A program made the position numbers and the translations under genes. The notes beneath the pieces are model-generated. The model was not told the DNA's origin. It saw only the letters and a program-made list of their open reading frames with translations, and ran no database searches. 64,000 nucleotides of DNA from positions 62,001 through 126,000 of the forward strand of contig NZ_JACJUK010000002.1 of NCBI RefSeq assembly GCF_014235875.1, read 5' to 3'. This stretch comes from Croceivirga lutea (GTDB lineage: Bacteria > Bacteroidota > Bacteroidia > Flavobacteriales > Flavobacteriaceae). Positions 42,089 to 61,475 of the stretch are shown in pieces; within the stretch, counting starts at the first letter, position 1; the number at the start of each line of letters is the position of its first letter.

Positions 42089-42131
42089 CAAAAGTAGTAG
42101 TAGTCCTATTTTAAAAACATGACAATCATCA
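42089..42131 (-). promoter_or_regulatory. FNR-like site and promoter of the usp-SLC13-pckA-pfk operon
   Basis: TGACAATCATCA (42120-42131) fits TGAY-N4-RTCA. Reading on the minus strand, TACTTTTG (42089-42096) is a perfect TAnnTTTG element centred 33 bp from the centre of the palindrome. The usp start is 65 bases from the palindrome. Confidence 0.7.
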
Positions 42132-42174
42132 GGTTTGAAAAATTTCACTTTAAGTTGATGTTAAATCTTACATA

Positions 42175-42190
42175 CATGATATTAATCATG
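42175..42190 (+). promoter_or_regulatory. FNR-like palindrome upstream of the DUF2490 gene
   Basis: CATGATATTAATCATG is a perfect 16-bp palindrome containing TGAT-N4-ATCA, 52 bases before the start at 42243. At the 33-bp offset the sequence is AAACCTTG (42212-42219), only a partial match to TAnnTTTG, so this promoter is the weakest of the set. A second site (42120-42131) in the same gap faces the usp gene. Confidence 0.55.
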
Positions 42191-42242
42191 TTAATCGCTA
42201 CTTTTTTTTGAAAACCTTGCACACGTCTTTTGATACTATGTT

Positions 42243-42953
42243 ATGGTAACACTACTACCTCTTAATTTCAAAAAGATGTTGATGGCTGTTTTAATTGGCT
42301 TTATTTCAACCCAAAACTTTGCACAACAAACTTTAGAAAACAACTTAGGCACTTGGTATGTCTTATCTGGCAACGCACAATTAAATGAAAAATGGAGTCT
42401 ACCCTTTTGCGGAATTCTTAGAGAGTACAACCTAGCAAGTGCTACCGAATTTGGTTTTGTACAGGCTGGGGTAGGGTATCAAATTACCCCTACTACAAAA
42501 CTATCTGTTGGCATAGCGTATTTAGATAAAAACCCTTTTGAAAGTAGTTTTGATGAAGGTGATACTAATCAGTTTTGGCTTTATCATGAGCTTAAGTACA
42601 AAAGCTCTAAAAATTTTTCTCACCGCTTACGTGTTGAAAATCGATGGTTTGTAAATACAGATGAAACCTATTTAAAATCTAGAATTCGATATCGGCTACA
42701 ATACACCTATGCCTTAACTAATAGTAGTTATTTAAAAGTTTTTGAAGAACCCTTTTTAGGTTTACATGAAGCTCATATTAATCAAAATCGGTTTTATTTG
42801 GGGTATGGGCGCAAATTAAATCAACAAATGAAACTCGAGTTAGGGTACTTAAAACTACATGTGGGCAAAAACAATTTTGACCGTATTAGAATGACACTAT
42901 TAATCAATACTAAATTATTTTCTCCAAAAAATCATCTATTCGCAAATAGATGA
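42243..42953 (+). CDS. DUF2490-family outer membrane beta-barrel protein
   Basis: The protein has 236 residues with a signal peptide (start MVTLLPLNFKKMLMAVLIGF, processed near NFAQQ). The mature part is an alternating, aromatic-rich beta-barrel pattern typical of DUF2490: NNLGTWYVLSGNAQLNEKWS, YKSSKNFSHRLRVENRWFVN, RIRYRLQYTYALTNSSYLKV, FYLGYGRKLNQQMKLELGYL. No function is known for the family; related proteins are found in the outer membrane of Bacteroidetes. It is transcribed away from the usp operon and has an FNR-like palindrome upstream. A strand-end Phe or Leu with a typical barrel terminus is not obvious. Confidence 0.75.
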   Translation: MVTLLPLNFKKMLMAVLIGFISTQNFAQQTLENNLGTWYVLSGNAQLNEKWSLPFCGILREYNLASATEFGFVQAGVGYQITPTTKLSVGIAYLDKNPFESSFDEGDTNQFWLYHELKYKSSKNFSHRLRVENRWFVNTDETYLKSRIRYRLQYTYALTNSSYLKVFEEPFLGLHEAHINQNRFYLGYGRKLNQQMKLELGYLKLHVGKNNFDRIRMTLLINTKLFSPKNHLFANR

Positions 42954-42995
42954 TATTATCAAAATCGCAATTTATTACCTACAAAATTTAAAAGT

Positions 42996-43038
42996 TGATA
43001 AATATCATGTTTTAAATATCTATGTAATTATACATTTA
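42996..43038 (+). promoter_or_regulatory. FNR-like site and promoter of the tonB-like gene
   Basis: TGATAAATATCA (42996-43007) is followed by TACATTTA (43031-43038), centred 33 bp downstream. The start codon at 43061 is 54 bases from the palindrome. Confidence 0.7.
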
Positions 43039-43060
43039 TCATAAGAAAATGTTTAAAGTC

Positions 43061-43786
43061 ATGGAACTAAAGAAAAACCCGCAAGCAGATTTAAACAGAA
43101 ATAGTAGTCTTTATTTTGTTATTGGATTAACTATTGTCTTGTTTTCAACTTGGCGTCTTTTGGAACATAAGACGTACGAGCAAGTAAAAGAATATGAAAC
43201 CACTTTAAATGTAGTGGATGATATGACAGAAGAAGTACCTATTACCCAAAACTTTAATACTCCGCCACCCCCACCTCCACCCTCTGCCCCTAGTGTAATT
43301 GAGATTGTTGAGAATATGGAGGAGGTTGAAGAAACCGTAATTGAAAGTACAGAAAGTAGTCAAAACACCGCTGTTGAAGAAGTTATTGTAAGTACCGATG
43401 AAGTTGAGATTGAAGAAGTTGAAGAAGATATTGTAGTACCCTTTGCAGTAATTGAACATGTACCCGTATTTCCAGGCTGTGAACAGTTAGCTTCTGAGGC
43501 TGAAAAAAAGGCTTGTTTTAATGAAAAAATGCAACTACATATCCAAGAAAACTTTAAATATCCTGCTACCGCCCTAGAATTGGGTATTACTGGTAGAGTT
43601 TTTGTTCAGTTTCAAATTGATAATAAAGGGTATGTAAAAGGAATTCGTACTCGTGGCCCTGATAAACTTTTAGAAACTGAAGCTGAACGTATTATAGCTT
43701 TATTACCCAAAATGAAACCTGGTGTACAACGCGGTACTAGCGTAAAAGTAAACTACAGCATTCCTATTAGTTTTCTTATGCAGTAG
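43061..43786 (+). CDS. TonB-family energy transducer
   Basis: The protein has 241 residues from the ATG at 43061; another ATG 12 bases upstream is possible, but the family normally begins MELKKNP. A single membrane helix (about residues 18-36) is followed by a proline stretch (TPPPPPPPSAP) and a long Glu/Val-rich linker (VEEVIVSTDEVEIEEVEEDI). The C-terminal TonB domain (about residues 150-241) has EHVPVFPGCEQLASEAEKKA, YPATALELGITGRVFVQFQI and YVKGIRTRGPDKLLETEAER. Two cysteines in the PGCEQ / KKACFN segment are typical of this Bacteroidetes group. It lacks ExbB/ExbD partners nearby. It sits behind an FNR-like site, so it may serve envelope uptake at low oxygen. Confidence 0.88.
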   Translation: MELKKNPQADLNRNSSLYFVIGLTIVLFSTWRLLEHKTYEQVKEYETTLNVVDDMTEEVPITQNFNTPPPPPPPSAPSVIEIVENMEEVEETVIESTESSQNTAVEEVIVSTDEVEIEEVEEDIVVPFAVIEHVPVFPGCEQLASEAEKKACFNEKMQLHIQENFKYPATALELGITGRVFVQFQIDNKGYVKGIRTRGPDKLLETEAERIIALLPKMKPGVQRGTSVKVNYSIPISFLMQ

Positions 43787-43807
43787 TTGGGTTTATACTT
43801 TAGTTAA

Positions 43808-43840
43808 AGCCCTGAGTTATTAAGTTAGCTCAGGGTTTTT
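43808..43840. terminator. Bidirectional terminator between the tonB-like and aspartoacylase-like genes
   Basis: AGCCCTGAG (43808-43816) pairs with CTCAGGGTT (43829-43837) with one G-T pair. A T-run follows on the plus strand, and A's precede the stem to serve the minus-strand gene. Confidence 0.8.
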
Positions 43841-45039
43841 TATGTAAACCAAGGTGCGTTTTTATACATGGCTAATTTAGAATTGTATTCACGACTCTTA
43901 AGTATAAGGTGATGTTCTCCTTGACTTCTTGCTCTATAACCTAAAAGATGAAAAATAGGTTTAGCCAAAAATCTTGCTACCCTTTTATTAACTCTAAGTA
44001 TATGTATATCATTACTATCTCTAGTAACCCCAGGTAGAATAGTAAGCACACTATCTAACCTAAAACGTCTCACGTATTTTGATACCGTAAGAAAAAGCAT
44101 AGGTATAGGCCTGATAAGATAATAAGCCTCATTACCGCTTTTCTGATACAAAGGCATAAATATCTGTGTATTATGTGTAGAAATCACAGCTCCATTATGG
44201 TCATGTGCAAAAATTTCTCCCTTTGTTAAATCTTGAAAATTTGTATACCCAGGTTGCATTTGGAAGGACTCGTTAGAAGATACAAGACGTTGAAAATAGA
44301 TTTCAAAGAATTTTTTTTGATAATTTCCCGCCTTTAAAATACTTTGCTTTACGCTTTCAAAAATGCTAGAATGAACATTGTAAAAGCCTGTTAATATTAA
44401 GGTATACCAAATAAAATTTTTGGCATTTTCAACAGCCTCTTCACTAGTATGTTGACCAGATTCAAAACCTATAGAAACATAACCTAATTCATTTAAATAA
44501 CTTAAGAGCGCCCCATTTAAATATTCTTCAATACCCAATATCACCGGCAACGGATAATTTTTAGTAAACTTTCGATTTAAAAGGCTATCATTAATAATTA
44601 AAAAAGGAATTGTATCACTAGAGGTGGTATGCAAATCGATAAAATAAAAAGGTGGTTCACAACTGTCTAAAATTTGCAATAACATAGCGTACAGTTCTTG
44701 CATCTCTTTTTCCTCAGCGTTTAAAGTGCCCAGTTTTGTTTTAATATCTAAACTTTCTAAACGCTGGTCTGCCCAAATTCTATTTAAATCTTCTTGTTGA
44801 AAGCGAATGTTTTTAGAAAGCGCATTTAAATTTCCTGATAAGGCAATGAGCTCTCCTTTAAAGTCGTTTGCATGTTCTTTTATGCTTAGAAACACCTTTT
44901 TAAGTGCAGAAACTCCGGCTGGTTCATTACCGTGAATACCTCCAAAAAAGATTAGGGTTGGCCCATTATACTTTCCTTTATAATGACCAATTACCCGCTG
45001 TTTTACAGCTAAAGATGTAAACATTGAATTGTTGGCCAT
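43840..45039 (-). CDS. Succinylglutamate desuccinylase/aspartoacylase-like (AstE-type) amidohydrolase
   Basis: The protein has 399 residues. It is an M14-like zinc carboxypeptidase-fold enzyme. The zinc and catalytic motifs are present: LIFFGGIHGNEPAGVSALKK (His and Glu), FYFIDLHTTSSDTIPFLIIN (the DLHTT His), SIGFESGQHTSEEAVENAKN (the catalytic Glu region). The C-terminal 200 residues are a beta domain with PGYTNFQDLTKGEIFAHDHN. Known members hydrolyse N-acyl amino acids. The start ATG overlaps the stop of the upstream ligase-CBS gene by one base (TAATG), so the two proteins are translationally coupled and may act on the same amide. The substrate is unknown. Confidence 0.82.
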   Translation of the reverse strand: MANNSMFTSLAVKQRVIGHYKGKYNGPTLIFFGGIHGNEPAGVSALKKVFLSIKEHANDFKGELIALSGNLNALSKNIRFQQEDLNRIWADQRLESLDIKTKLGTLNAEEKEMQELYAMLLQILDSCEPPFYFIDLHTTSSDTIPFLIINDSLLNRKFTKNYPLPVILGIEEYLNGALLSYLNELGYVSIGFESGQHTSEEAVENAKNFIWYTLILTGFYNVHSSIFESVKQSILKAGNYQKKFFEIYFQRLVSSNESFQMQPGYTNFQDLTKGEIFAHDHNGAVISTHNTQIFMPLYQKSGNEAYYLIRPIPMLFLTVSKYVRRFRLDSVLTILPGVTRDSNDIHILRVNKRVARFLAKPIFHLLGYRARSQGEHHLILKSREYNSKLAMYKNAPWFT

Positions 45040-46886
45040 TAATCTAAATCTTTGGTACTTAAGATGCCTATAACCAACCCATCTTTACATACGGGAAGGC
45101 AGCCAATTTCATGAGAAGAAAACAGCTTTTCTGCTTCTGCAATTGAAGCTTCTGCATCAATGGTAATAGGATTTTTTAGCATTACCTCAGAAACCTTATA
45201 ATCGACTGTGTCTACCATCAAATCTTTTTCTTGTAAATAATTTGTTGTTAAAAGACCAACTAAATCTCCTTTGACATTTTCAATTGGCATGTGATTAATT
45301 GCATTCCATTTCATTATCGCTTTTGCCATACTCAAATAATCGTGTTCTTGTAGTTTAAATAAACGAGTAGACATTATATCTTTAACTATTACCTCATTCT
45401 TTTCTGTTTCTTCAATTTTTACATCTTCCCATTGATGTACTGGCAAACCTGTTTTTTGTTTTTCTACAATAGCTTTTGTTAACGCTTTTAATGCCGCTCT
45501 TGTTTTAAAAGTTGACCTTAGCTTTCTATAGTTTTGAATTTGCCACTGGTCACCGGTTCTGCCCTTTACTCTTTGCTCAATAATTTCTAAAAAATGCTCT
45601 CTTTCTGCATCATCAACACCAAACTTTTGTAACCCTAAATGTGCAATCGGCAACAATTTGTGAAGTACTAATTTTTTAGCAGAATATTCTTGACCGTCCC
45701 ATAGAAACAATGTTTCCTTACCTGTTCTAGCGGCTTTAATAAAATTGGTTTTAGCCACTTTAAAGTCCATCTGCTCTGGCATGTTATCATATTTCTTTGG
45801 TCTGCCAACCATCAAGCCTACCCAAAAAGCAAAGTTTGCTATTTGGTCAACTACAGTTGGCCCTGAGGGAATATATCTATTTTCTATTCGTAAATGTGGT
45901 TTACCACCGCCTACACCATAGCAAGGTCTATTCCAACGGTAAACCGTACCATTATGCAATTGTAGCGCTGGTAATTTGGGTATTTTATCTTCTGCAATGA
46001 GCTTTGTAGAGTACTCCTCTATTTCTTTTATCAGTAGCACATTATGCGTACTAATACTTTTTTTATACATATTGGCTACACAGCCTGTTTCCCATTCATC
46101 TCCAAAGCCTACTCTTGGCGCTTGGTCTACTAAAGCATTGGACGTTTTACGGGTATCTAAACTTTGTTGAAATAAAGCTATTCTGGTTTCTTTCCATAAT
46201 TCTCTACCCATTAGCAAGGGTGAATTACAGCAAACTGCAAGAACAGGTCCTGCAATGGCTTGGGCCCAGTTATAACTCGAAATAAAGTCGTGTGATGGTA
46301 TTTGCAAATGCAATTGAAAACTGGTATTACAAGCTTCAAACATTACAGAATCGTGTTTTAAAAACAATTCATCAGCACCTCTTATTTTTAAATCAAAATT
46401 AGAACCCTTGGTATGTGTAAGAATTTCATTTAGTGCTATATATCTGGCAATAGGGGTCAAATAGCTTAAATCCACTTCTTTTTTACCAATAGTGGGTAAA
46501 ATTCCTGCTAATAATATATCTGCACCTAATTTGTTGGCTTTTTGCCTAACACTATCTAAAAACGTGTTTAGTTGATGGTTAACTTCACTAAAACAATTGG
46601 TATGTAATTTTAAAGGCTCTAAATTGAGTTCTATATTATAAGTTGCTAACTCGGTAGTAAACTGTTTATCGTTTAACGCCTCTAAGAGTTTCAAATTTAT
46701 GGGTGCGGGCTGATAATCTTTATCAATTAAGCATATTTCTTGCTCTGCCCCAATTCGAACAATATCATCTTCAAACCTATTTGCTTTTAGCAATTGTTCT
46801 AAAGCGGTAATATCATCAATAAGGTGCTCAATAAACTTCATGCGCACCTGCTCATTGGTTTGAATTTCAACGATTTTTTCACCCAT
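45039..46886 (-). CDS. Glutamate-cysteine-ligase-like amide ligase fused to a CBS-domain pair
   Basis: The protein has 615 residues. Residues about 15-480 resemble the GCS2/carboxylate-amine ligase family: RIGAEQEICLIDKDYQPAPI (the family Glu-x-Glu motif), IELNLEPLKLHTNCFSEVNH, FEACNTSFQLHLQIPSHDFI, LQLHNGTVYRWNRPCYGVGG with KPHLRIENRYIPSGPTVVDQ. These enzymes join an amino group to a carboxylate using ATP. Residues about 492-615 are two CBS domains (VKDIMSTRLFKLQEHDYLSM, IGCLPVCKDGLVIGILSTKD), which normally sense adenine nucleotides. The downstream amidohydrolase overlaps by one base. An FNR-like site with TAGATTTG lies upstream. The product is not known; glutathione synthesis is one possibility, but no glutathione synthetase is adjacent. 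Confidence 0.83.
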   Translation of the reverse strand: MGEKIVEIQTNEQVRMKFIEHLIDDITALEQLLKANRFEDDIVRIGAEQEICLIDKDYQPAPINLKLLEALNDKQFTTELATYNIELNLEPLKLHTNCFSEVNHQLNTFLDSVRQKANKLGADILLAGILPTIGKKEVDLSYLTPIARYIALNEILTHTKGSNFDLKIRGADELFLKHDSVMFEACNTSFQLHLQIPSHDFISSYNWAQAIAGPVLAVCCNSPLLMGRELWKETRIALFQQSLDTRKTSNALVDQAPRVGFGDEWETGCVANMYKKSISTHNVLLIKEIEEYSTKLIAEDKIPKLPALQLHNGTVYRWNRPCYGVGGGKPHLRIENRYIPSGPTVVDQIANFAFWVGLMVGRPKKYDNMPEQMDFKVAKTNFIKAARTGKETLFLWDGQEYSAKKLVLHKLLPIAHLGLQKFGVDDAEREHFLEIIEQRVKGRTGDQWQIQNYRKLRSTFKTRAALKALTKAIVEKQKTGLPVHQWEDVKIEETEKNEVIVKDIMSTRLFKLQEHDYLSMAKAIMKWNAINHMPIENVKGDLVGLLTTNYLQEKDLMVDTVDYKVSEVMLKNPITIDAEASIAEAEKLFSSHEIGCLPVCKDGLVIGILSTKDLD

Positions 46887-46905
46887 ACCTTTATTACTAT
46901 ACAGC

Positions 46906-46948
46906 CAAATCTAGAAACATACTCCAGAATAAACTATGACAATTGTCA
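46906..46948 (-). promoter_or_regulatory. FNR-like site and promoter of the ligase-CBS gene
   Basis: TGACAATTGTCA (46937-46948) is a perfect palindrome. On the minus strand TAGATTTG (46906-46913) is centred 33 bp away and matches TAnnTTTG. The ligase start is 50 bases from the palindrome. Confidence 0.72.
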
Positions 46949-46973
46949 GAATTACAACCTTTTACGATTGAAC

Positions 46974-47016
46974 TGATAATTGTCATATTTTTTGATTTCT
47001 AGGTCTTATACTTTTG
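46974..47016 (+). promoter_or_regulatory. FNR-like site and promoter of hemN
   Basis: TGATAATTGTCA (46974-46985) is followed by TACTTTTG (47009-47016), centred 33 bp downstream. The start at 47034 is 49 bases from the palindrome. A sister site for the divergent ligase gene lies 37 bp away. Confidence 0.75.
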
Positions 47017-47033
47017 GAATAAATACTAAGCAA

Positions 47034-48392
47034 ATGTGTGGCTTAACAACAAAATATAATGTACCTGGTCCTAGGTATACCAGTTACCCTACAGTTCCGT
47101 ACTGGAACAATGAAGATTTTTCATCTAAAAATTGGAAACTTCGTGTAAAAGAAAGTTTTACTAATTCTAGTGATGAAGGCATAAGCATTTATATACACCT
47201 GCCTTTTTGCGAAAACATGTGTACTTTTTGTGGTTGTCATAAAAGAATTACAAAAAGACACGAACTCGAAGACCCTTATATAAAAGCGGTTTTAAAAGAA
47301 TGGAGTCTTTATAGAGACCTTTTAGGAAAACGTCCGCTAGTAAAAGAATTGCACTTGGGTGGAGGAACACCAACCTTTTTCTCTCCTGAAAACCTTTCGA
47401 AACTTCTGAACGGAATATTTAAAACCGTTACCGTAGCTAAAAATGCTTCGTTAAGTTTTGAAGGTCATCCAAACAACACTACAAAAGAACATTTACAAGC
47501 GCTTTTTAACGTAGGTCTTAAACGGGTGTGTTATGGTGTTCAAGATTATAACAAAACGGTTCAAACTGCCATAAATAGAATTCAAACCTATGAAGAGGTT
47601 GAGCAAGTCACCAATTGGGCAAGAGAAATCGGATATACCTCTGTGGGGCACGATTTAATTTACGGATTGCCTTTTCAAACTCTTGAAGATGTTATCAACT
47701 CAATTGAAAAGACAAATATTTTACGGCCAGACCGCATTGCTTTTTATAGCTATGCCCATGTCCCATGGAAAAAAGGGAACGGTCAACGCGGGTATAAAGA
47801 TGAAAATTTACCCACCGCAACCCAAAAAAGAGAACAATACGAAATTGGTAAAAAAATGCTCCTTAACATGGGGTATAAAGAAATTGGCATGGACCATTTT
47901 GCTCTTGAAACAGACGAACTGTATCAGGCACTAGAAAACCAAACGCTGCACCGAAACTTTATGGGATATACTCCTAACAAAACAGATGTTATGATTGGTT
48001 TAGGTGTTTCTAGCATAAGTGATTGTTGGTCTGCTTTTGCTCAAAATGTAAAAAATGTAGAAGAATACCAGCACTTGGTAGCTAATAACATTATTCCGGT
48101 TTATCGCGGACATTTACTTACCCAAGAGGATGAATTGGTGCGCAAACAAATTTTAAATTTAATGTGTAACTACGAAACCTCTTGGACCATTGAAGACGAA
48201 GCTGTTATTGATTTTAAATCTATAAAAGATAGCTTGGCAGAACTTGAAGCTGATGGATTATTAACCATTGGCCAAAGACAAATCTTAGTCTCTAAAAAGG
48301 GACGTCCTTTTATTAGAAATATAAGTATGGCTTTTGATTTGCGTTTACAGCGCAACAAACCAGAGACACGCTTATTTTCTATGACCGTATAA
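47034..48392 (+). CDS. hemN: Oxygen-independent coproporphyrinogen III oxidase
   Basis: The protein has 452 residues from the ATG at 47034. A TTG at 46980 would overlap the FNR-like site and is rejected. It is a radical-SAM enzyme that decarboxylates coproporphyrinogen III without oxygen. The cluster motif CENMCTFC is at 59-66, with the extra HemN Cys68 just after it (CGC). Other HemN features are YNVPGPRYTSYPTVPYW, LHLGGGTPTFFSPENL, HDLIYGLPFQTLEDV and GMDHFALETDELYQ. The C-terminal HemN domain with NLMCNYE is present. It shares a promoter region with the divergent ligase-CBS gene and is followed 33 bases later by a usp gene. An FNR-type control is expected for this gene in facultative bacteria. 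Confidence 0.96.
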   Translation: MCGLTTKYNVPGPRYTSYPTVPYWNNEDFSSKNWKLRVKESFTNSSDEGISIYIHLPFCENMCTFCGCHKRITKRHELEDPYIKAVLKEWSLYRDLLGKRPLVKELHLGGGTPTFFSPENLSKLLNGIFKTVTVAKNASLSFEGHPNNTTKEHLQALFNVGLKRVCYGVQDYNKTVQTAINRIQTYEEVEQVTNWAREIGYTSVGHDLIYGLPFQTLEDVINSIEKTNILRPDRIAFYSYAHVPWKKGNGQRGYKDENLPTATQKREQYEIGKKMLLNMGYKEIGMDHFALETDELYQALENQTLHRNFMGYTPNKTDVMIGLGVSSISDCWSAFAQNVKNVEEYQHLVANNIIPVYRGHLLTQEDELVRKQILNLMCNYETSWTIEDEAVIDFKSIKDSLAELEADGLLTIGQRQILVSKKGRPFIRNISMAFDLRLQRNKPETRLFSMTV

Positions 48393-48425
48393 CTAATGAC
48401 CTTATGGTCGTAAAAAACTACTCCT

Positions 48426-49247
48426 ATGAAAAGTATATTAGTACCTGTTGATTTCTCTAAACAGTCAGAAATAGCACTTAAAAAAGCAGCGCATTTAGCA
48501 AAAAAAAATAATGCCGAATTATATGTGCTTCACATGCTAGAAATTGCACCTTCTTTAGGTCAAGGTGGCGACTATATTCCACAAGCACAAATTGTTCATC
48601 TGATTAAAATAATTGAAGAAAAATTAGAAAAATTTCTTCAAAAACCTTTCTTAGATGGCATTAAGGTTACTCCAATAATTAAACATTACAAGGTGTTTTC
48701 TGAAGTTAATGAATTGGCTCAAAAACACAATGTAGATTTAGTAGTAATGGGTTCTCATGGAACAGACGGATTAGAAGAGTTTTTTATTGGTTCAAATACA
48801 GAACGTGTAATCAGAAGTTCAGAAGTTCCGGTATTAGTAGTAAAAGGAGAAATTGCCGACTTTTCTGCTGACCGCTTTGTGTTTGCATGTGACTTTAAAG
48901 AAGAAAATGTTAACGTGGTAAAAAAAGCTGTGGCATTTGCTGAAGCATTAGGTTCAGAAGTTAAGCTCGTTTATATTAATACTCCAGGTGATGCGTTTAT
49001 GAGTAATGAAGAAATCTACGATAGAATTTCTAGATTTTTGAACATTGCTAGACTTGGCTTAGAGGTTGATATTTATAATGATTATACCGTTGAAAAAGGT
49101 GTGCTGAATTATGCTGAAACTAATGCAGCAGATATTATTGGATTACCCACACATGGCAGAAGAGGATTATCACATTTTTTTATGGGTAGTATAGGTGAAG
49201 ATATTGCTAATCATAGCAAAATACCGGTGATTACCTTTAAAATCTAA
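48426..49247 (+). CDS. Universal stress protein, tandem UspA domains
   Basis: The protein has 273 residues with two UspA domains. Both carry the ATP-binding glycine loop: VVMGSHGTDGLEEFFIGSNT in the first and GLPTHGRRGLSHFFMGSIGE in the second, ending in VITFKI. The start is 33 bases after the hemN stop with no promoter visible, so it is probably transcribed with hemN under the same FNR-like site. It differs from the protein at 41263, which has a weak second loop. A strong terminator follows at 49280. Confidence 0.92.
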   Translation: MKSILVPVDFSKQSEIALKKAAHLAKKNNAELYVLHMLEIAPSLGQGGDYIPQAQIVHLIKIIEEKLEKFLQKPFLDGIKVTPIIKHYKVFSEVNELAQKHNVDLVVMGSHGTDGLEEFFIGSNTERVIRSSEVPVLVVKGEIADFSADRFVFACDFKEENVNVVKKAVAFAEALGSEVKLVYINTPGDAFMSNEEIYDRISRFLNIARLGLEVDIYNDYTVEKGVLNYAETNAADIIGLPTHGRRGLSHFFMGSIGEDIANHSKIPVITFKI

Positions 49248-49318: not shown

Positions 49319-49361
49319 TGATATTTATCATAAATTTTGACATTTTAGGTGACTATCTTTA
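49319..49361 (+). promoter_or_regulatory. FNR-like site and promoter of the CBS-domain gene
   Basis: TGATATTTATCA (49319-49330) is followed by TATCTTTA (49354-49361), centred 33 bp downstream. The start at 49385 is 55 bases from the palindrome. Confidence 0.7.
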
Positions 49362-49384
49362 AGTAACAAATTAAAAAAGAGGCC

Positions 49385-49804
49385 ATGAGAAAACGAGTTC
49401 CGATTACAGAGATAATGACCAAAAATTTGGTAACCCTTACAACAAAAGATGATTTGGTAACTGCTGAAGAGTTGTTTAAAAAACATCGTATAAGACATAT
49501 TCCGGTTGTATCTGGAAACAAGATTAAGGGTATTCTTAGTTACACTGATTTAATGCGAATTAGTTTTGCTGATGCAATTGATGAAGATGAGCAAGATGTA
49601 GACACTATGGTTTACAATATGTTTACCATTGAACAAGTAATGGTCAAAGATGTAGCCACTGTACCTATTCAAGCTACCATCAAAGAAGTAGCTCAGTTTT
49701 TATCGGTTAAAGAATTTCACGCATTACCGGTAGTAGATGGAGACGAATTGGTTGGTATTGTGACCACAACAGATTTAGTTAAGTATTTATTAGAACAATA
49801 TTGA
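49385..49804 (+). CDS. Stand-alone CBS-domain pair protein
   Basis: The protein has 139 residues and consists only of two CBS domains: VPITEIMTKNLVTLTTKDDL, IRHIPVVSGNKIKGILSYTD for the first and VMVKDVATVPIQATIKEVAQ, FHALPVVDGDELVGIVTTTD for the second. A CBS pair usually binds AMP, ADP or ATP and controls a partner protein. The protein has no catalytic domain of its own. It is similar in layout to the CBS pair attached to the ligase at 45039. It has its own FNR-like promoter and a terminator shared with the convergent pyruvate kinase gene. Confidence 0.92.
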   Translation: MRKRVPITEIMTKNLVTLTTKDDLVTAEELFKKHRIRHIPVVSGNKIKGILSYTDLMRISFADAIDEDEQDVDTMVYNMFTIEQVMVKDVATVPIQATIKEVAQFLSVKEFHALPVVDGDELVGIVTTTDLVKYLLEQY

Positions 49805-54468: not shown

Positions 54469-54535
54469 TTTGTAACGATTTTAAATTTAGCATGAAACTA
54501 AATTATATTTTACTGATTATCACTAACTTTAGTTA

Positions 54536-54578
54536 CAAAATTAGCTCGATTTTAAAGGGTAAAATATGACAAAAATCA
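54536..54578 (-). promoter_or_regulatory. FNR-like site and promoter of the persulfide dioxygenase-HMA operon
   Basis: TGACAAAAATCA (54567-54578) fits TGAY-N4-RTCA. On the minus strand TAATTTTG (54536-54543) is centred 33 bp away. The gene start is 98 bases from the palindrome. At the matching offset on the plus strand no -7 element exists, so the divergent gene at 54711 is probably not served. Confidence 0.62.
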
Positions 54579-54710
54579 GTTTTTATACTTTAAAATACAC
54601 CATCCTAAAATCTTTTAATTTACCTATGGGTAAATCGGTTAATATTAGCTGTATTAATTATGTATTTAAAGGTTATTGTCGTATCTTATAAATAGCTTAA
54701 AAATCTCCTC

Positions 54711-55166
54711 ATGATTGAAAATTTAGACATTAAGGATTGTTTAGCCATTTTAGGGGCTAACCATATAGGCAGACTGGGATATGTTTTTGGACAAAGTCCG
54801 TTTATTTTACCCATTACCTATTATCATGACCCTGAAGAAAAATGCATTATAAGTTATTCTTCTGAAGGTCATAAAATTGATGCTATGAGAAGATATGACA
54901 TTGTAGCTTTGCAAGTAGATGAAATAAAAGGTATTCATAACTGGAAATCTGTAATGATTCAAGGCCATTATGACGAGTTAACATCGAGTGATGCCAAGAT
55001 ATACCTAAGACGTTTTGCTGATGGGGTAAACAAAGTTATTTCTAAAAACAATCAGCAAACCCCTCAATTTATAAAAGACTTTTCTAACAAATTAGACCAG
55101 AAAGGTTTACCTATTGTTTACCGAATTGTGATTACTGAAATTATTGGTAAATGCAGAACAGCTTAG
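54711..55166 (+). CDS. Pyridoxamine 5'-phosphate oxidase-like flavin-binding protein
   Basis: The protein has 151 residues. It has the split-barrel fold of the PNPOx-like family: NLDIKDCLAILGANHIGRLG, FILPITYYHDPEEKCIISYS, KIDAMRRYDIVALQVDEIKG and WKSVMIQGHYDELTSSDAKI. Such short proteins bind FMN or heme; several are tied to nitrosative or oxidative stress, but most are untested. It is divergent from the persulfide dioxygenase gene and convergent with the DsbD_2/TauE-like gene. No FNR-like site with correct geometry faces it. Confidence 0.82.
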   Translation: MIENLDIKDCLAILGANHIGRLGYVFGQSPFILPITYYHDPEEKCIISYSSEGHKIDAMRRYDIVALQVDEIKGIHNWKSVMIQGHYDELTSSDAKIYLRRFADGVNKVISKNNQQTPQFIKDFSNKLDQKGLPIVYRIVITEIIGKCRTA

Positions 55167-55203
55167 GTCAAACAAAGTGTTAAATAATGATTATCAGTTC
55201 ACA

Positions 55204-55911
55204 CTAATGACATTCAATGGCACTAGAAGCCATATCTACAGTACTTGGTGCAGCAGGTGATAAATAAGGTATACCTAGCCCCATTCCTCTAATAATAAAA
55301 AGCACTCCAACGAGCACCACAAAAACAGGCACTAATTTTCTGAATTTTGCTTTAGTTTTGGGTGTAAATAAGGTGCTAAAATATACTGCCGTTGTCATTA
55401 ACGGTATTGTTCCTAAACCAAATACCGCCATATAAAGACTACCAGAAACAGCATTACCCATGGCTATAGCTCCTAACAAGGCCATATAGACTAATCCGCA
55501 GGGTAAAAAACCGTTTAAAACACCTATGGTTAAAAATGTATCTGGAGTTCTTTTTTTAAGCTCATTACCCAATTTAGACTTGACCTTTCCAATAATGGTA
55601 TAAACTGGTTTGGTGATACTAAATTTTGATACATAACGTGAGGGTATTAGCACTAAAAGAATCATAAACACACCAATCACAATAGAGAGTTTTTGCTGAA
55701 AGCCAAATAATTGAAGTCCTTTACCTACCAAGCCAAAAGCCAAACCCATTAAGGCATAAGAAAATATTCTGCCAAGGTGATATAGGGAGAGTTGAAAGAT
55801 TTTTTTGGTATTGTTACTCTTATCTAAAGGTAACATAAAAGCAATTGGTCCACACATGCCCAAACAGTGTAAGCTTCCTAAAAGACCCAAGACCAAAGCT
55901 GATGCTACCAT
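55204..55911 (-). CDS. DsbD_2/TauE-SafE-like membrane protein of the cbb3 cluster
   Basis: The protein has 235 residues with six or seven membrane helices. The N-terminal GLLGSLHCLGMCGPIAFMLP has the conserved C-x3-C in TM1, and VLNGFLPCGLVYMALLGAIA is a second conserved Cys-containing motif. These mark the DsbD_2 (sulfite exporter TauE/SafE-like) group that often closes cco clusters in Bacteroidetes. A role in copper or redox supply to the oxidase is proposed from position, not shown by sequence. The gene follows ccoH by 19 bases. The C-terminus ends in a His (ECH) that may also bind metal. Confidence 0.82.
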   Translation of the reverse strand: MVASALVLGLLGSLHCLGMCGPIAFMLPLDKSNNTKKIFQLSLYHLGRIFSYALMGLAFGLVGKGLQLFGFQQKLSIVIGVFMILLVLIPSRYVSKFSITKPVYTIIGKVKSKLGNELKKRTPDTFLTIGVLNGFLPCGLVYMALLGAIAMGNAVSGSLYMAVFGLGTIPLMTTAVYFSTLFTPKTKAKFRKLVPVFVVLVGVLFIIRGMGLGIPYLSPAAPSTVDMASSAIECH

Positions 55912-55930
55912 GTTTACGTTTTAAAAGCAA

Positions 55931-56377
55931 TTAGTAAACTAATTTTTCTTTATGTAAATAGGTTTTACCTTTATATTTCCAGTTAATGGTAATGTCCCAC
56001 CGACCGTCTAGCAAGCGGTTGTCAGGTATGAGCAAATGTGTGTTGGATAGACTTATGGGCAAGTCAAAATCCAATTGCTTGTTCGACGGTCTGTATAGGG
56101 ACACGTTACCAGTTATTTGGTTATATTCATAATTTTCTGGGAAAGTGATTAATAAGCCACCTTCCACTATTTGTGTTGTTAATACGGCGCCAGATTCGTA
56201 GGCAGATTTTTGAGAATCTATTTCGTTTTGGTAGGCCAGTTCTTTTTTATAATAGTCTTTAGTAACCAATTCATGGTCTGCTCTAGCATCAGCATTCATT
56301 TGAATAACGAAATACATGATAAAAGCAATAAAGCTTATAAACGCTAAAACGATTGATGTTCCCCAATTTATCTTCAT
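55931..56377 (-). CDS. ccoH: FixH/CcoH-like protein for cbb3 oxidase assembly
   Basis: The protein has 148 residues. One membrane helix (about 8-25, TSIVLAFISFIAFIMYFVIQ) is followed by a periplasmic domain with the FixH start HELVTKDYYKKELAYQNEID. FixH/CcoH assists assembly of the cbb3 oxidase. It lies 48 bases after ccoG and 19 bases before the DsbD_2/TauE-like gene on the same strand. Confidence 0.88.
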   Translation of the reverse strand: MKINWGTSIVLAFISFIAFIMYFVIQMNADARADHELVTKDYYKKELAYQNEIDSQKSAYESGAVLTTQIVEGGLLITFPENYEYNQITGNVSLYRPSNKQLDFDLPISLSNTHLLIPDNRLLDGRWDITINWKYKGKTYLHKEKLVY

Positions 56378-56425
56378 CTCTTTTTATATTTAAATCCTAC
56401 CCCTATTGGCTTTGTATCGAGTGTT

Positions 56426-57847
56426 TTAATTATAGCTTCTTGGAGCTAAAAATTGTGTAATAGCCGTTTCAATCATATCATCACCGCTATATACTCCAAT
56501 TTTTAATTCATCTTTATCACCTGTTAAGGCTGAAGCATTTATTTCTATAAATAATGTACCCTCGGCTAAGTCTTGTGCTGGAACCAAAAACCTATCTTGA
56601 GAAACCATCTTTATTTCTCCGTTATGCGATAGTAACTTAAAACTTACTTGCTCTACGTCTTCTACCGTTTTGTTTACCAACTTATAGGTGTATACATTGC
56701 TAATAATATTGTTTTCTTTTCTTTCGTATAACTGGCCTGGCAATCTTAAAATATTAGCCTCTAAATCGTTACGCAAAAACAACATTCCTATTAGTATACC
56801 TGTGAGCACAGTTAACACAGCAGCATAACCTTTCATTCTAGGGGTAAATCTGAACTTTTGTTTGGTATTAATTTCATGCTCGCTTGCATATCTAATTAAG
56901 CCTTTTGGCTTATCTATGCGCTCCATGATGGTGTCACACTCATCAATACAAGCGGTACAGTTTACGCACTCTAGTTGTGTACCGTTTCTGATATCGATAC
57001 CTGTAGGGCACACATTTACACACTGAAAACAGTCTATGCAATCACCATGGCCTAAGGCTTCTCTATCTTCGTTTTTACGGAATTTTTTTCTACCGTTTTC
57101 TCCTTCACCCCTTTTATGGTCATAAGCAACTACAATAGATTTTTCATCTAGTAAAACACCTTGCAGTCTACCGTATGGGCAAGCTATAATGCAAACTTGT
57201 TCACGAAACCAAGCGAATATAAAATAGAATACTCCTGTAAATATTAATAACGGAATTAGGGTTCCTAAATGACTAAAAGGACCTTGGGTTATGTATAGTA
57301 TTAACTTATCACTACCTATGATATAGGCTAAGAAAACGTTTGCTACTAAAAATGAAATAATAAAGAAAATTATCCATTTTAAGACTCGTTTTCTAATTTT
57401 CTCACCGGTCCACGGTGCTTTTTTTAAACGTATTTGTGCTCCACGGTCACCATCTATCCAATATTCTATTCGTCTAAAAACCATTTCCATAAAAATGGTT
57501 TGAGGACACATCCACCCACAAAATATTCTACCAAAACCTACGGTAAAAAGTGCTACAAAGACTACCCCGATAATCATTGAAATAACAACCAAATGAAAAT
57601 CTTGAGGCCAAAATGGAAAACCAAAAATATTAAACCTTCGTTCTAAAACATTGAACATCAAAAACTGATTTCCATTGATTTTAACGAACGGTGCAGCAAA
57701 TAAAAACAGTAATAGAAAGTAACTTACGTATTTTCTATATTCGTAAAACTTACCACTAGGTTTTTTAGGAAACATCCATGCTCTTTTACCATCTTTGGTA
57801 ATAGTTGCAATTGAATCCCTAAAATTTTCTTCTTCCATTTTCTGCAT
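56426..57847 (-). CDS. ccoG: CcoG/FixG cytoplasmic-membrane iron-sulfur protein
   Basis: The protein has 473 residues. It has four to five membrane segments, then GFGRIFCGWMCPQTIFMEMV (the NapH/FixG motif), FREQVCIIACPYGRLQGVLL, and a dicluster ferredoxin region CIDCFQCVNVCPTGIDI and CVNCTACIDECDTIM for two 4Fe-4S clusters. The C-terminal domain (IEINASALTGDKDELKIGVY) is immunoglobulin-like, periplasmic. FixG is required for copper/redox steps in cbb3 assembly. It starts 28 bases after the ccoP stop and precedes ccoH. Confidence 0.93.
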   Translation of the reverse strand: MQKMEEENFRDSIATITKDGKRAWMFPKKPSGKFYEYRKYVSYFLLLFLFAAPFVKINGNQFLMFNVLERRFNIFGFPFWPQDFHLVVISMIIGVVFVALFTVGFGRIFCGWMCPQTIFMEMVFRRIEYWIDGDRGAQIRLKKAPWTGEKIRKRVLKWIIFFIISFLVANVFLAYIIGSDKLILYITQGPFSHLGTLIPLLIFTGVFYFIFAWFREQVCIIACPYGRLQGVLLDEKSIVVAYDHKRGEGENGRKKFRKNEDREALGHGDCIDCFQCVNVCPTGIDIRNGTQLECVNCTACIDECDTIMERIDKPKGLIRYASEHEINTKQKFRFTPRMKGYAAVLTVLTGILIGMLFLRNDLEANILRLPGQLYERKENNIISNVYTYKLVNKTVEDVEQVSFKLLSHNGEIKMVSQDRFLVPAQDLAEGTLFIEINASALTGDKDELKIGVYSGDDMIETAITQFLAPRSYN

Positions 57848-57875
57848 TTTTTTGTCTAAAGCAACACTCTTAACC

Positions 57876-58823
57876 TTAATTCATAACCACAGCTTGCGTG
57901 CTATCTGCAACTTGTTCTGGCATGGTTTCTTCTGTTGGTTTAGGAGCATTTTCATCTATCCAAATTTCACCTTCTGCGTCTTTTGGATTAGCAGCTGTTG
58001 TACCTTGAAACTGCAACACATAGCTAGCTACTTGAGCAATTTCTGATGGTTTTAAACTTGCTTTCCAAGCTACCATACCTTTACCGTCTCTACCACCTTC
58101 AGAAATTGTAGTAAACACGTTTTTAATGCCACCACCTAAAATCCAATACTCATCTGTAAGGTTAGGGCCAATACCGCCACCACCATCTGCCATGTGACAG
58201 GCAACACAATTGGTTTCAAAAATGGTTTTACCGGCAGAAAGGTCACTTGCATCTGTCAATACCGTTACGGTAGATGCATCTACTAAATCTTTTGCTGTTT
58301 TTTTGTATTCTTCAATAGCAATTTTAGCTGCAGCCACCTCTTGTTCATACTCTAATTTTTGGTCATAATCTCCTGCAATGTGGAACCTTACCAAGTAAAT
58401 AACTGCAAAGACAATTGTAGCATAGAACATATATACCCACCATGGTGGCAACACATTATCTAGTTCTCTAATACCATCGTAATTATGGTCAAGTACAATT
58501 TCTCCTTCTTTTTCTATAGCACGACTTTTAGTAAGCTTGGCATACATTTGTTTACCCCAGGTCCATTCCCACTTTTTGTTTTGCTCTGCTAAGTATTTAG
58601 CTTGAGCTTCTTTTGAAAGCGTTTGAAACATTATGTTTTCAATGGACTTTAGAATGGCTTCAATAGCTACTAATATTAGCAACACCATTAACAAAAAGAA
58701 CTGTGTAACCGGATACGCAATAATTGCAGGCTGGTCTCCAGAGTCTATAAAATACTCCATCGCCCCCCAAATGATGAAAAATAATAGTGGCACTCTAATC
58801 CACCAAGGTATTCTAGAAATCAT
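57876..58823 (-). CDS. ccoP: cbb3 oxidase subunit III, mono-haem cytochrome c (CcoP)
   Basis: The protein has 315 residues. Two hydrophobic segments near the N-terminus (VPLLFFIIWGAMEYF, QFFLLMVLLILVAIEAI) and one at about 125-145 (YMFYATIVFAVIYLV) anchor it. The single c-type haem site CVACH is at 206-210, with the Met ligand expected in GKGMVAW. Proteobacterial CcoP has two haem domains; only one is present here, as is usual in Bacteroidetes. The tail after residue 285 is acidic and Pro-rich. It follows ccoQ by 11 bases. Confidence 0.92.
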   Translation of the reverse strand: MISRIPWWIRVPLLFFIIWGAMEYFIDSGDQPAIIAYPVTQFFLLMVLLILVAIEAILKSIENIMFQTLSKEAQAKYLAEQNKKWEWTWGKQMYAKLTKSRAIEKEGEIVLDHNYDGIRELDNVLPPWWVYMFYATIVFAVIYLVRFHIAGDYDQKLEYEQEVAAAKIAIEEYKKTAKDLVDASTVTVLTDASDLSAGKTIFETNCVACHMADGGGGIGPNLTDEYWILGGGIKNVFTTISEGGRDGKGMVAWKASLKPSEIAQVASYVLQFQGTTAANPKDAEGEIWIDENAPKPTEETMPEQVADSTQAVVMN

Positions 58824-58834
58824 AATCTTATTTG

Positions 58835-59011
58835 TTATTGGTTGTTATTTTCTAAAGGCATTTCACCCATTTCTTTTATATGCTCTTTTCTTGCCGTGAA
58901 TACCCACCAAAATAATAAGGTGAAAAACACGAAGAAAATTAGTAATGATATCATGGGGTAGGTAGCTACCCCATCTATTGTTTGCATGTGTTCTTTTACG
59001 AATTTTAACAT
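58835..59011 (-). CDS. ccoQ: cbb3 oxidase small subunit, CcoQ-like
   Basis: This 58-residue protein (MLKFVKEHMQTIDGVATYPM at the start) has one membrane helix, ISLLIFFVFFTLLFWWVF, followed by basic and acidic residues ending in PLENNNQ. It lies between ccoNO (two-base gap) and ccoP (11-base gap), where CcoQ or subunit IV belongs. Short CcoQ proteins stabilise the oxidase. The sequence has the small, aromatic single-helix layout of that family. The gene is too short for many gene finders. Confidence 0.82.
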   Translation of the reverse strand: MLKFVKEHMQTIDGVATYPMISLLIFFVFFTLLFWWVFTARKEHIKEMGEMPLENNNQ

Positions 59012-59013
59012 CT

Positions 59014-61218
59014 CTAGTTTGCGTTTTGTGACAATAATTCGTCTGTTTCTTTTATTTTAATATCGGTTCCTAAACGCTGTAAATAAGCTATTAGGCTGAC
59101 GATTTCACGGTCGCGCATTTCAACAAATGGTAAGCCGTTTTCTTGAGCATATTTCTTATCTGCTTCATAGGTTTTTACAAACTCTGGGTCAGCGTATAAG
59201 TTTTTCTCTATTTGTTCTGCTTGCATTGCCATGGATTCTTGGGCACTTGAGATATCTTCATCTGTATAAGGAACCCCTAGTTTAACCATGGTTTTCATTT
59301 TGGCTTCAACATCACTTCTATCATGTTCATTTTTAACTAACCATTGGTATGCAGGCATAATAGAACCCGCGGAGGTACTTTGAGGGTCATACATGTGATT
59401 TAAATGCCAGTTATCAGAATACTTTCCGCCAACTCGCAATAAATCTGGACCTGTACGTTTACTACCCCAAAGGAAAGGGTGGTCATAAACAAACTCGCCC
59501 GCTTTAGCATATTCTCCGTAACGTTCTACTTCACTTCTAAATGGTCTAATCATTTGAGAGTGACAACCTACACAACCTTCTCTGATGTATAAGTCTCTAC
59601 CTTCTAATTCTAGTGGTGTGTAAGGTTTAACACTGGTAATCGTTGGAATATTAGATTTAACCATTATGGTTGGCACAATTTGAACTACACCACCTATAAG
59701 GATAGCTATGGTTGCAAATATGGTTAAACGCACTGGTCTTCTTTCTAACCATGTATGGTAGGTTTCTCCTGCGGTTCTTCTACCCGTTACCTTAGCTAAA
59801 GCTGGGGCTTCTGCCAATTCATCTTCAACTTTACTACCTTTTCTAATGGTTGCCACAACGTTGTATAACATTACAAATGCACCAATGATATATAAACTAC
59901 CGCCGATTGCACGCATCCAATACATAGGAATGATTTGTGATACCGTCTCTAAGAAGTTACCATATACCAATGTACCATCTGGGTTAAACTCTTTCCACAT
60001 TAAGGCCTGGGTAAAACCAGCTACATACATTGGAAGTGTGTATAAAACAATACCTAGGGTACCTATCCAGAAATGGAAATTTGCCAATCCTTTTGAGTGT
60101 AATGTTGTCTTAAACATTCGTGGCACTAACCAGTAAATCATACCAAAGGTTAAGAAGCCATTCCAAGCTAACGCACCAACGTGTACGTGAGCAATAATCC
60201 AATCACTAAAGTGTGCAATTGCATTTACGTTTTTCAAAGACAACATTGGTCCTTCAAATGTGGCCATACCATAACCTGTAATAGCCACTACCATGAATTT
60301 TAAAACAGCATCTGAACGAACTTTGTCCCAAACACCTCTTAAGGTTAAGAGACCATTAATCATACCTCCCCAAGATGGTGCAATTAGCATTACAGAGAAT
60401 ACTACCCCTAAGTTTTGGGCCCAATCTGGTAAAGCTGAATACAATAAGTGGTGAGGACCAGCCCAGATATAGATAAAAATTAATGACCAAAAGTGCACTA
60501 TAGACAATCTATAGGAGTATACCGGTCTGTTAGCAGCTTTAGGAACAAAATAATACATAAGCCCTAAAAATGGCGTAGTTAAAAAGAATGCTACGGCGTT
60601 ATGGCCATACCACCATTGTACTAATGCATCTTGAACTCCAGCATAAACCGAGTAACTTTTTAAACCTGTAACTGGTAATTCTAAACTGTTAAATATGTGA
60701 AGTACAGCGACAGTAACAAATGTTGCTAAGTAGAACCAAATAGCCACGTAGAGGTGACGTTGTCTTCTTTTAAGAATGGTTCCAATCATATTCCACCCAA
60801 ATACCACCCAAACTACTGCTATAGCTAAATCTATTGGCCATTCTAACTCTGCATATTCTTTAGATGTAGTGTAACCTAAGGGTAAGGTTATTGCAGCAGC
60901 TACGATTATTAACTGCCAACCCCAAAAGTTAATATTACTTAATGCATCACTAAACATTCTGGCCTTTAGCAGACGCTGTAAAGAATAATAAACCCCTGCA
61001 AAAATTGCGTTACCTACAAAGGCAAAGATTACCGCATTGGTGTGCAATGGTCGTAAACGTCCAAAACTTAACCAAGAGATACCATCTGTAAGGTTAGGGA
61101 ATAAAAACATAAAGGCCAACAGCAGCCCCACAGCCATACCAACAATACCCCAAAGAATGGTGGCATAGAGGAATTTTTGTACGATTTTATTATCGTAATG
61201 AAATTGTTGTACTTCCAT
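59014..61218 (-). CDS. ccoNO: cbb3 oxidase fused subunits I and II (CcoN-CcoO)
   Basis: The protein has 734 residues. Residues about 1-475 are CcoN with 12 or more membrane helices: RPLHTNAVIFAFVGNAIFAG (haem ligand), QWWYGHNAVAFFLTTPFLGL and YIWAGPHHLLYSALPDWAQN (Cu-B His), IIAHVHVGALAWNGFLTFGM. After a linker and one helix, residues about 530-734 are CcoO with the c-haem site CVGCH at 549-553 and a conserved region YGEYAKAGEFVYDHPFLWGS. The fusion is normal in Bacteroidetes. The enzyme is a high-affinity terminal oxidase for low oxygen. It follows ccoS by two bases. Confidence 0.96.
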   Translation of the reverse strand: MEVQQFHYDNKIVQKFLYATILWGIVGMAVGLLLAFMFLFPNLTDGISWLSFGRLRPLHTNAVIFAFVGNAIFAGVYYSLQRLLKARMFSDALSNINFWGWQLIIVAAAITLPLGYTTSKEYAELEWPIDLAIAVVWVVFGWNMIGTILKRRQRHLYVAIWFYLATFVTVAVLHIFNSLELPVTGLKSYSVYAGVQDALVQWWYGHNAVAFFLTTPFLGLMYYFVPKAANRPVYSYRLSIVHFWSLIFIYIWAGPHHLLYSALPDWAQNLGVVFSVMLIAPSWGGMINGLLTLRGVWDKVRSDAVLKFMVVAITGYGMATFEGPMLSLKNVNAIAHFSDWIIAHVHVGALAWNGFLTFGMIYWLVPRMFKTTLHSKGLANFHFWIGTLGIVLYTLPMYVAGFTQALMWKEFNPDGTLVYGNFLETVSQIIPMYWMRAIGGSLYIIGAFVMLYNVVATIRKGSKVEDELAEAPALAKVTGRRTAGETYHTWLERRPVRLTIFATIAILIGGVVQIVPTIMVKSNIPTITSVKPYTPLELEGRDLYIREGCVGCHSQMIRPFRSEVERYGEYAKAGEFVYDHPFLWGSKRTGPDLLRVGGKYSDNWHLNHMYDPQSTSAGSIMPAYQWLVKNEHDRSDVEAKMKTMVKLGVPYTDEDISSAQESMAMQAEQIEKNLYADPEFVKTYEADKKYAQENGLPFVEMRDREIVSLIAYLQRLGTDIKIKETDELLSQNAN

Positions 61219-61220
61219 AA

Positions 61221-61412
61221 TTATTCAGTTTCACTTTTATTTTGGTTATTACTAGTTGTTGTTTGCTCAATTAATTCATCTTCGAATAACATTCGAACAG
61301 ATGGAGTGTAGGAGTCATCATACTGGCCCTTTTTTACTGAAAAAACGAATGCAGTAAAAAAGACCACAGCGACACATACACTAATGGTTAATAAAACATA
61401 GATTACACTCAT
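61221..61412 (-). CDS. ccoS: cbb3 oxidase maturation protein CcoS
   Basis: The protein has 63 residues with one N-terminal membrane helix (VIYVLLTISVCVAVVFFTAF) and the family segment SVKKGQYDDSYTPSVRMLFE. CcoS is needed to place haem b and copper in the oxidase. It lies two bases before ccoNO and 135 bases after the ccoI stop. The gap contains the FNR-like site at 61464-61475. Confidence 0.92.
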   Translation of the reverse strand: MSVIYVLLTISVCVAVVFFTAFVFSVKKGQYDDSYTPSVRMLFEDELIEQTTTSNNQNKSETE

Positions 61413-61432
61413 ACCTATTTTGAATCTGGTGG

Positions 61433-61475
61433 TAAAACTACTGGCTCACTATTCAGATTAAAATGACATTTATCA
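61433..61475 (-). promoter_or_regulatory. FNR-like site and promoter for ccoS and the cbb3 genes
   Basis: TGACATTTATCA (61464-61475) fits TGAY-N4-RTCA. On the minus strand TAGTTTTA (61433-61440) is centred 33 bp away. The ccoS start is 51 bases from the palindrome. The promoter lies between ccoI and ccoS. Confidence 0.7.

Follow-up and report, generated by a model that had tools for sequence, protein, structure and literature searches.

A fixed-spacing palindrome and promoter box upstream of predicted low-oxygen genes in Croceivirga lutea and other Bacteroidia

Introduction

A stretch of 64,000 nucleotides from the flavobacterium Croceivirga lutea (contig NZ_JACJUK010000002.1, positions 62,001 to 126,000 of the forward strand; hereafter the window) raises the question of how the genes around its cbb3 oxidase locus are controlled. 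An initial annotation had proposed that FNR-like palindromes, lying at a fixed distance from TAnnTTTG promoter boxes, define a low-oxygen regulon. We consider it very likely that these are activator-dependent sigma-A promoters under class II Crp/FNR control, and that they are read by an FNR-like protein and by a response regulator that joins a receiver to a Crp-type output (receiver-Crp). This explanation is based on the layout and spacing of the sites, their gene context and distribution, their co-occurrence with both proteins and the conservation of cysteines. Binding, an iron-sulphur (Fe-S) cluster, a response to oxygen, phosphorylation and activation would be the steps by which it works.

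Composite sites in the window

The palindrome TGAYNNNNRTCA (pattern TGAY-N4-RTCA) occurs 14 times in the window. Six occurrences (5516, 26783, 27320, 27662, 37790 and 42560) are inside open reading frames (ORFs) and eight are intergenic (42120, 42177, 42996, 46937, 46974, 49319, 54567 and 61464), exactly where the initial annotation had placed them. In seven of the eight intergenic sites a TAnnTTTR box begins at a gap of 23 bases from the palindrome, with 33 bp between the two centres, on the strand facing the nearest gene; the spacing, strands and sequences that had been reported for these seven were found again. We refer to a palindrome followed by TAnnTTTR at gap 23 as a composite site. The sites and the genes near the right end of the window are as follows (window coordinates unless a contig is given).

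42089-42131, minus strand: composite site, box TACTTTTG at 42089-42096, palindrome at 42120-42131; predicted target usp-SLC13-pckA-pfk (usp start 42054); expected +1 at 42084.
42177-42188, no strand: palindrome TGATATTAATCA, lacking a box at gap 23, in the space that separates usp from a DUF2490 gene (42243-42953).
42996-43038, plus strand: composite site, palindrome at 42996-43007, box TACATTTA at 43031-43038; predicted target TonB_C protein (43049-43786); expected +1 at 43043.
46906-46948, minus strand: composite site, box TAGATTTG at 46906-46913, palindrome at 46937-46948; predicted targets GCS2-like and CBS protein (start 46886) and AstE-like gene; expected +1 at 46901.
46974-47016, plus strand: composite site, palindrome at 46974-46985, box TACTTTTG at 47009-47016; predicted targets hemN (ATG 47034; TIGR00538) and usp (48426-49247); expected +1 at 47021.
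49319-49361, plus strand: composite site, palindrome at 49319-49330, box TATCTTTA at 49354-49361; predicted target CBS protein (49385-49804); expected +1 at 49366.
54536-54578, minus strand: composite site, box TAATTTTG at 54536-54543, palindrome at 54567-54578; predicted targets MBL-rhodanese gene (persulfide dioxygenase-like, start 54468) and HMA gene; expected +1 at 54531.
61433-61475, minus strand: composite site, box TAGTTTTA at 61433-61440, palindrome at 61464-61475; predicted targets small ORF at 61412 (CcoS by position) and ccoNO-P-G-H; expected +1 at 61428.
61548-63944, minus strand: CcoI-type P-type ATPase; the FNR-like gene is next, divergent, just beyond the window.
64000, plus strand: first base of the composite site before the FNR-like gene; the site is G000:C12:126000-126042 and the gene G000:C12:126066-126755 (L004:2067-2756), wholly outside the window.
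C12:126775-126817: second composite site past the window, predicted to serve the next usp gene.

When TAnnTTTR was sought at all gaps from 5 to 59 on both strands of all 14 palindromes, seven matches fell at gap 23 and a single one at another gap, 56. When the flanks of the eight intergenic palindromes were shuffled in 20,000 rounds, the number of matches averaged 0.06 and never exceeded 2. The distance from box to start codon is 10 to 67 bases, the hemN start being taken as ATG 47034; the mechanical ORF starts earlier, at a TTG within the site.

Searches of the served genes against Pfam and NCBIfam returned Usp, SLC13/CitMHS, PEPCK and PFK; TonB_C; weak GCS2 with CBS; HemN; CBS; MBL-rhodanese with HMA; and CcoNO, CcoP and CcoG. 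Most of the gene names given earlier thus agree with the profiles. CcoS (a 63-aa ORF at 61412) is named by position only, as is CcoH, for which the NCBIfam search gave no match.

The palindrome at 42177 has the full extended consensus (ATGATATTAATCAT) and is followed about 10 bases downstream by the T-run TACTTTTTTTTG, so that it would overlie a core promoter of the DUF2490 gene. Since it has no box, it may not be an activator site. A repressor position and an auxiliary site were both considered, with evidence for neither. At 43840-46886, the weakly GCS2-like protein with CBS domains adjoins the AstE/aspartoacylase-like enzyme, with a composite site upstream.

Distribution in the genome and in Bacteroidia

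Across the whole genome the palindrome alone is found 225 times, against 228 for the reversed pattern, which is the background level; the signal is therefore the fixed spacing. Palindrome and TAnnTTTR, taken together at gaps of 8 to 38, occur in 45 places, 22 of them at gap 23 and the other 23 spread over 30 gaps (Poisson ~1e-24), and the reversed composite was not found in this genome (0 versus 22). All 22 composites are intergenic, the seven of the window as well as the 15 outside it, and 13 of these 15 lie at most 43 bases from a start codon. They are mainly in two clusters, one formed by the window and its right flank (C12:104-127 kb) and the other at C11:684-716 kb. The latter holds ten usp-like genes, eight of them consecutive, together with a ribosome hibernation factor and signalling genes; three of the usp-like genes were tested with Pfam and the others were named by likeness. 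Five of the eight consecutive genes (L006:5495-13163, G000:C11:704-712 kb) have a composite site of their own.

The composite was found 1,668 times in 120 genera of Flavobacteriaceae against 62 for the reversed control. Elsewhere in the class, 190 genomes from 63 families gave 864 composites and 56 controls. Two sets of relatives were read for gene context. The first comprised 40 stretches of nine relatives, picked for holding sites, which biases their spacing histogram and target list; 93 of its 96 composites are intergenic. The second comprised 80 FNR loci that a single scan of genomes with names had returned (Croceivirga, Allomuricauda/Flagellimonas, Maribacter, Robiginitalea and others), picked by their FNR gene and mostly of one clade. 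Here 214 of the 221 palindromes with a box are intergenic, though 89% of the DNA is coding. An equal frequency of composites inside genes and between them, which the initial annotation had named as evidence against the regulon, was therefore not seen. When gaps 5 to 60 were scanned in the named loci, 221 composites stood at gap 23, while the 55 other gaps averaged 0.71 apiece. The next-highest counts were 10 at gap 17 and 7 at gap 9, and five control palindromes (N3, N5 or changed letters) gave at most 7 at any gap. Boxes at gap 17 were seen near FNR in L118, L120, L121, L126 and L135, and at gap 9 in L175, L176, L180 and L183; these are possibly shifted or second promoters.

An artefact of A+T-rich intergenic DNA could account for a palindrome that, on its own, is no more frequent than its reversed control. 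It would not yield a peak at one single spacing with neighbours near zero, nor reversed controls of 0 in this genome and 62 versus 1,668 across the 120 genera, nor a median that falls to one site where both regulators described below are absent. Chance was rejected on the single-gap peak, the reversed controls and the dependence of the counts on the regulators, and we give this explanation almost no weight.

The targets recur. Sites in the named loci face the usp gene adjoining FNR (78), ccoS-NO (71) and FNR itself (66), and in all 71 relative cases the site is followed by a small ORF and then CcoNO. Among the nine relatives, ccoS-ccoNO is preceded by a site in nine of nine, irrespective of the regulator set, and hemN in seven (with receiver-Crp only, FNR only or both), only those seven hemN genes having been looked for. 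In two genomes without FNR (G027 and G101) sites precede ccoS-NO, hemN, HPF, TerB-like and usp genes, and in one of them MlaE. TonB homologues stand behind a site in three FNR-only genomes (G017, G044 and G072). Pyruvate formate-lyase, an oxygen-sensitive glycyl-radical enzyme, does so in G017 (by Pfam), as do ORFs of the same size (741 aa) in G044, G034 and G115. Further targets, here or in relatives, are c-type cytochromes, CcoG/P, pyruvate phosphate dikinase, an ADP-forming acyl-CoA synthetase-like protein and ribosome hibernation factors. In at least three places a single palindrome has a box on either side, each at a gap of exactly 23 bases, and so faces two divergent promoters (G111:C7:264799-264810, G056:C1:690269-690280 and G083:C9:37541-37552).

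Promoter position and structure of the site

Promoters mapped in F. psychrophilum carry TAnnTTTG at -12 to -5, according to PMC9723704. With the box in that position the palindrome would span -47 to -36 and be centred at -41.5, which is the class II position. The activator position near -41 given in the initial annotation is thus supported by comparison, the +1 being carried over from F. psychrophilum. A box of the same kind is found in the Bacteroidetes sigma-A promoter (TAnnTTTG at -7), as described in PMC9723704, whereas the composite promoters show merely a T-rich stretch at -33 to -30. This stretch alone may be what makes them need an activator.

We compared 374 distinct composites, including many from the 80 named loci. 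TGA is preceded by A or C in 95% of them and by T in 1%, and TCA is followed by T in 81% and by G in 18%. T is found at -32 and at -30 in roughly three quarters each, and the box ends in A in 60% and in G in 40%. The textbook FNR site is TTGAT-N4-ATCAA. The description of the sites as FNR-like therefore holds for the core TGAY-N4-RTCA and not for the outer T.

The FNR-like regulator

No Crp/FNR-type regulator with Fe-S cysteines had been seen in the window. A gene for an FNR-like protein with conserved cysteines (C12:126066-126755) starts 66 bp beyond the end of the window, and its own composite begins on the last base within it. The protein has a domain like those binding cyclic nucleotide monophosphates (cNMP; PF00027, E 6.8e-18) and a Crp-type helix-turn-helix (HTH; PF13545, E 1.8e-13). 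Its profile matches the solved FNR-type regulator 9qlt from the third to the 225th position (E 6e-30); the best structural match, to the Crp/Fnr protein 2gau (4e-35), aligns only from position 34. The NCBIfam Fnr model NF008365 was the best match in that collection, though at 108.5 bits it fell below the curated cut-off of 228.

An N-terminal C-X2-C (C6 and C9) aligns with CQDC of the solved FNR, and C108, in vCxIP, aligns with the central cysteine C122. A further cysteine of the beta-roll, C55, is found 49 positions after the first. All 29 orthologues of the family, all 79 from named genomes and all 20 more distant ones keep the four cysteines (relative positions 0, +3, +49 and +102); in two of the last 20 the stretch from the second to the third cysteine is shorter by four residues. 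The first two and the last align with C20, C23 and C122 of E. coli FNR. The recognition helix reads TESAIR, with E and R as in FNR and isoleucine replacing the FNR serine; this isoleucine may be connected with the loss of the outer T from the site.

The protein could instead be a carbon or redox (thiol) sensor of the Crp/MalR kind that controls respiration genes, and no oxygen sensor. PMC8510549 predicts that a Flavobacteriales CRP/FNR homologue, possibly an orthologue of the present protein, senses carbon and is MalR-like. The third cysteine of E. coli-type FNR (C29) is an asparagine (N15) here, and the regulon includes pckA, pfk and usp genes, with pyruvate phosphate dikinase in a relative. 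Against a carbon or thiol sensor stand the invariance of the CxxC pair, the C122 equivalent and the fourth cysteine in all three sets of orthologues, and the targets themselves, which comprise the cbb3 oxidase and hemN, joined in relatives by pyruvate formate-lyase. We regard such a sensor as unlikely, with a small but real chance of being correct. F. psychrophilum raises cbb3 oxidase and haem genes under oxygen limitation, as stated in PMC9723704, the main text of which lacks the words crp and fnr. Given these targets and that induction, low oxygen is most likely the signal for the FNR-like protein.

We propose that a dimer of the Crp/FNR family would bind (A/C)TGAY-N4-RTCA(T/G) centred at -41.5 and contact RNA polymerase as a class II activator at promoters with TAnnTTT(G/A) as -7 box. 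As oxygen falls, the FNR-like protein would assemble an Fe-S cluster on its four invariant cysteines and then dimerise. It would switch on the cbb3 oxidase, hemN (for oxygen-independent haem synthesis), universal stress proteins, a ribosome hibernation factor and itself, and fermentation genes in relatives.

A third HTH_Crp protein of this genome (L013:3686-4186, G000:C13; C13:173676) has neighbours that, from a partial reading of their sequence starts, resemble a SulP-type transporter and an MBL-rhodanese gene.

A proposed second reader of the same layout

The gene at C11:694850-695917 encodes a protein (P0002) with a receiver (PF00072, E 1.5e-28), a cNMP-type domain and HTH_Crp in one chain. 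It adjoins a PAS histidine kinase gene that has a composite upstream. A kinase homologue is directly upstream of the receiver-Crp gene in 30 of 30 loci. An N-terminal cysteine pair was found in none of these 30 receiver-Crp proteins. Such proteins are present in 54 of the 120 genera and in 93 of the 190 genomes outside the family, partial matches in G002 and G058 (family) and G173 and G261 (outside) being uncounted. The adjoining histidine kinase would activate the receiver-Crp regulator, whose cNMP-HTH_Crp output would be a second reader of the layout, here and in many relatives.

The number of sites follows both proteins. Taking an FNR orthologue in the family as a match of at least 40% identity, the median per genome in the 120 genera is 25 with both regulators (n=27), 10.5 with FNR only (n=44), 14 with receiver-Crp only (n=27) and 1 with neither (n=22). 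In the 190 other genomes, where those with matches weaker than about 2e-42 and not listed singly count as FNR-less, the medians are 10 (n=38), 4 (n=49), 3 (n=55) and 1 (n=48). Within families, one regulator as compared with none gave seven increases, one decrease and three ties among 11 comparisons, and two regulators as compared with one gave 11 increases and one decrease among 12. Judging from these counts, the receiver-Crp regulator tracks the sites about as well as FNR, and FNR is probably not the only reader.

If FNR alone read all sites, the receiver-Crp protein would have another target and its co-occurrence would stem from shared ancestry or lifestyle. In favour of this, the FNR gene lies amid the sites and in this genome is itself preceded by one, and the tastes of the two proteins are not identical: the N4 core is A/T-only in 98% of the 221 sites of FNR loci versus 52% of 33 sites of receiver-Crp loci. 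This difference runs opposite to base composition (42% G+C in FNR loci versus 35%), though the 221 sites are orthologous and hence dependent, and many receiver-Crp loci come from genomes with both regulators. A comparison of FNR-only with receiver-Crp-only genomes (A/T-only in 89% of 149 versus 53% of 170 sites) is confounded by composition, receiver-Crp-only G027 and G101 having about 42% G+C and five FNR-only genomes 30-34%. Its FNR-only set comprised nine genomes, and the sites of G033, G062 and G009 and two of G113 were left out, not by result. The cores hint at two dialects of one site. Against FNR as sole reader, 27 of the 120 genera have receiver-Crp without an FNR orthologue and still a median of 14 sites, including those at ccoS-NO and hemN in G027 and G101; the same pattern of co-occurrence is seen outside the family. 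An E-x-x-I-R recognition helix is common to all 29 FNR and 30 receiver-Crp proteins, and 15 of the 30 receiver-Crp loci have a composite immediately after the gene. A regulon read by FNR alone is therefore unlikely, and we rate it as quite improbable.

Several observations weigh against FNR and receiver-Crp control of these promoters. The palindrome by itself is at background, and that at 42177 has no box. Three of the 96 composites in the nine relatives and seven of the 221 in the named loci are inside genes. The missing C29 equivalent makes the Fe-S cluster uncertain, and autoregulation is not general: among FNR loci sampled across genera of the family, only 7 of 29 have a same-strand site at most 70 bases from the start. 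In some genomes that carry FNR, no more than one to three sites are present. Two genomes with neither regulator are exceptions to the low counts of that class: G051 has five, and G048 has 29 together with one weak Crp match, and its regulator may be in an assembly gap, since the genome is 82% complete. Finally, the co-occurrence counts treat genomes as independent, except in the test within families.

Taken with these points, a low-oxygen regulon under a Crp/FNR-type regulator, as initially annotated, is supported by comparison, and FNR as its single regulator probably is not. We think it fairly probable that Bacteroidia share one promoter code, a Crp/FNR palindrome 23 bp before TAnnTTTR, with two interchangeable readers: an FNR with rewired Fe-S ligands and a kinase-driven regulator. 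Lineages would keep either or both, each reader contributing promoters of its own, with roughly additive site counts, and the kinase-driven reader could take over the cbb3/hemN core where FNR was lost.

Comparison with known systems

In the open-licence literature searched we found no description of this site layout or regulon in Bacteroidota, nor of a displaced FNR cysteine or of receiver-Crp regulators sharing an FNR regulon there, which does not prove that none exists. Oxygen control in Bacteroidota is little described in the searchable literature, and a site position that can be read from sequence gives a testable list of low-oxygen genes in many genomes. The two proteins would offer a natural comparison between an oxygen-sensing and a kinase-driven regulator on the same promoters, and the displaced cysteine a new ligand set for oxygen sensing to examine.

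FNR-type and class II control are known kinds of regulation. FNR of E. coli and Aliivibrio shares with the present protein the Crp/FNR fold, the CxxC and C122-equivalent cysteines, the TGA-N6-TCA core, the centre at -41.5 (here the expected position) and targets of the cco/hemN type. It differs in that here the C29 equivalent is absent, C55 is invariant, the outer base of the site is A or C and not T, and the box is the Bacteroidetes TAnnTTTG. ANR/DNR of Pseudomonas controls cbb3 oxidase and universal stress proteins, and acts, unlike the regulators here, on a gammaproteobacterial promoter with a TTGAT-type site. It also controls hemN, as given in the abstract of PMC6588701, a target shared with the regulon described here.

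The FixLJ-FixK system is similar in that low-oxygen adaptation is under the joint control of a two-component system and a Crp/FNR protein, as we propose for these bacteria. FixLJ and FixK control the cbb3 oxidase. In rhizobia, the FixLJ two-component system acts with FixK/FnrN in low-oxygen adaptation, as described in PMC4999443. FixJ and FixK are separate proteins, whereas here the receiver and the FNR-type output form one polypeptide, which apparently reads the promoters of the stand-alone FNR.

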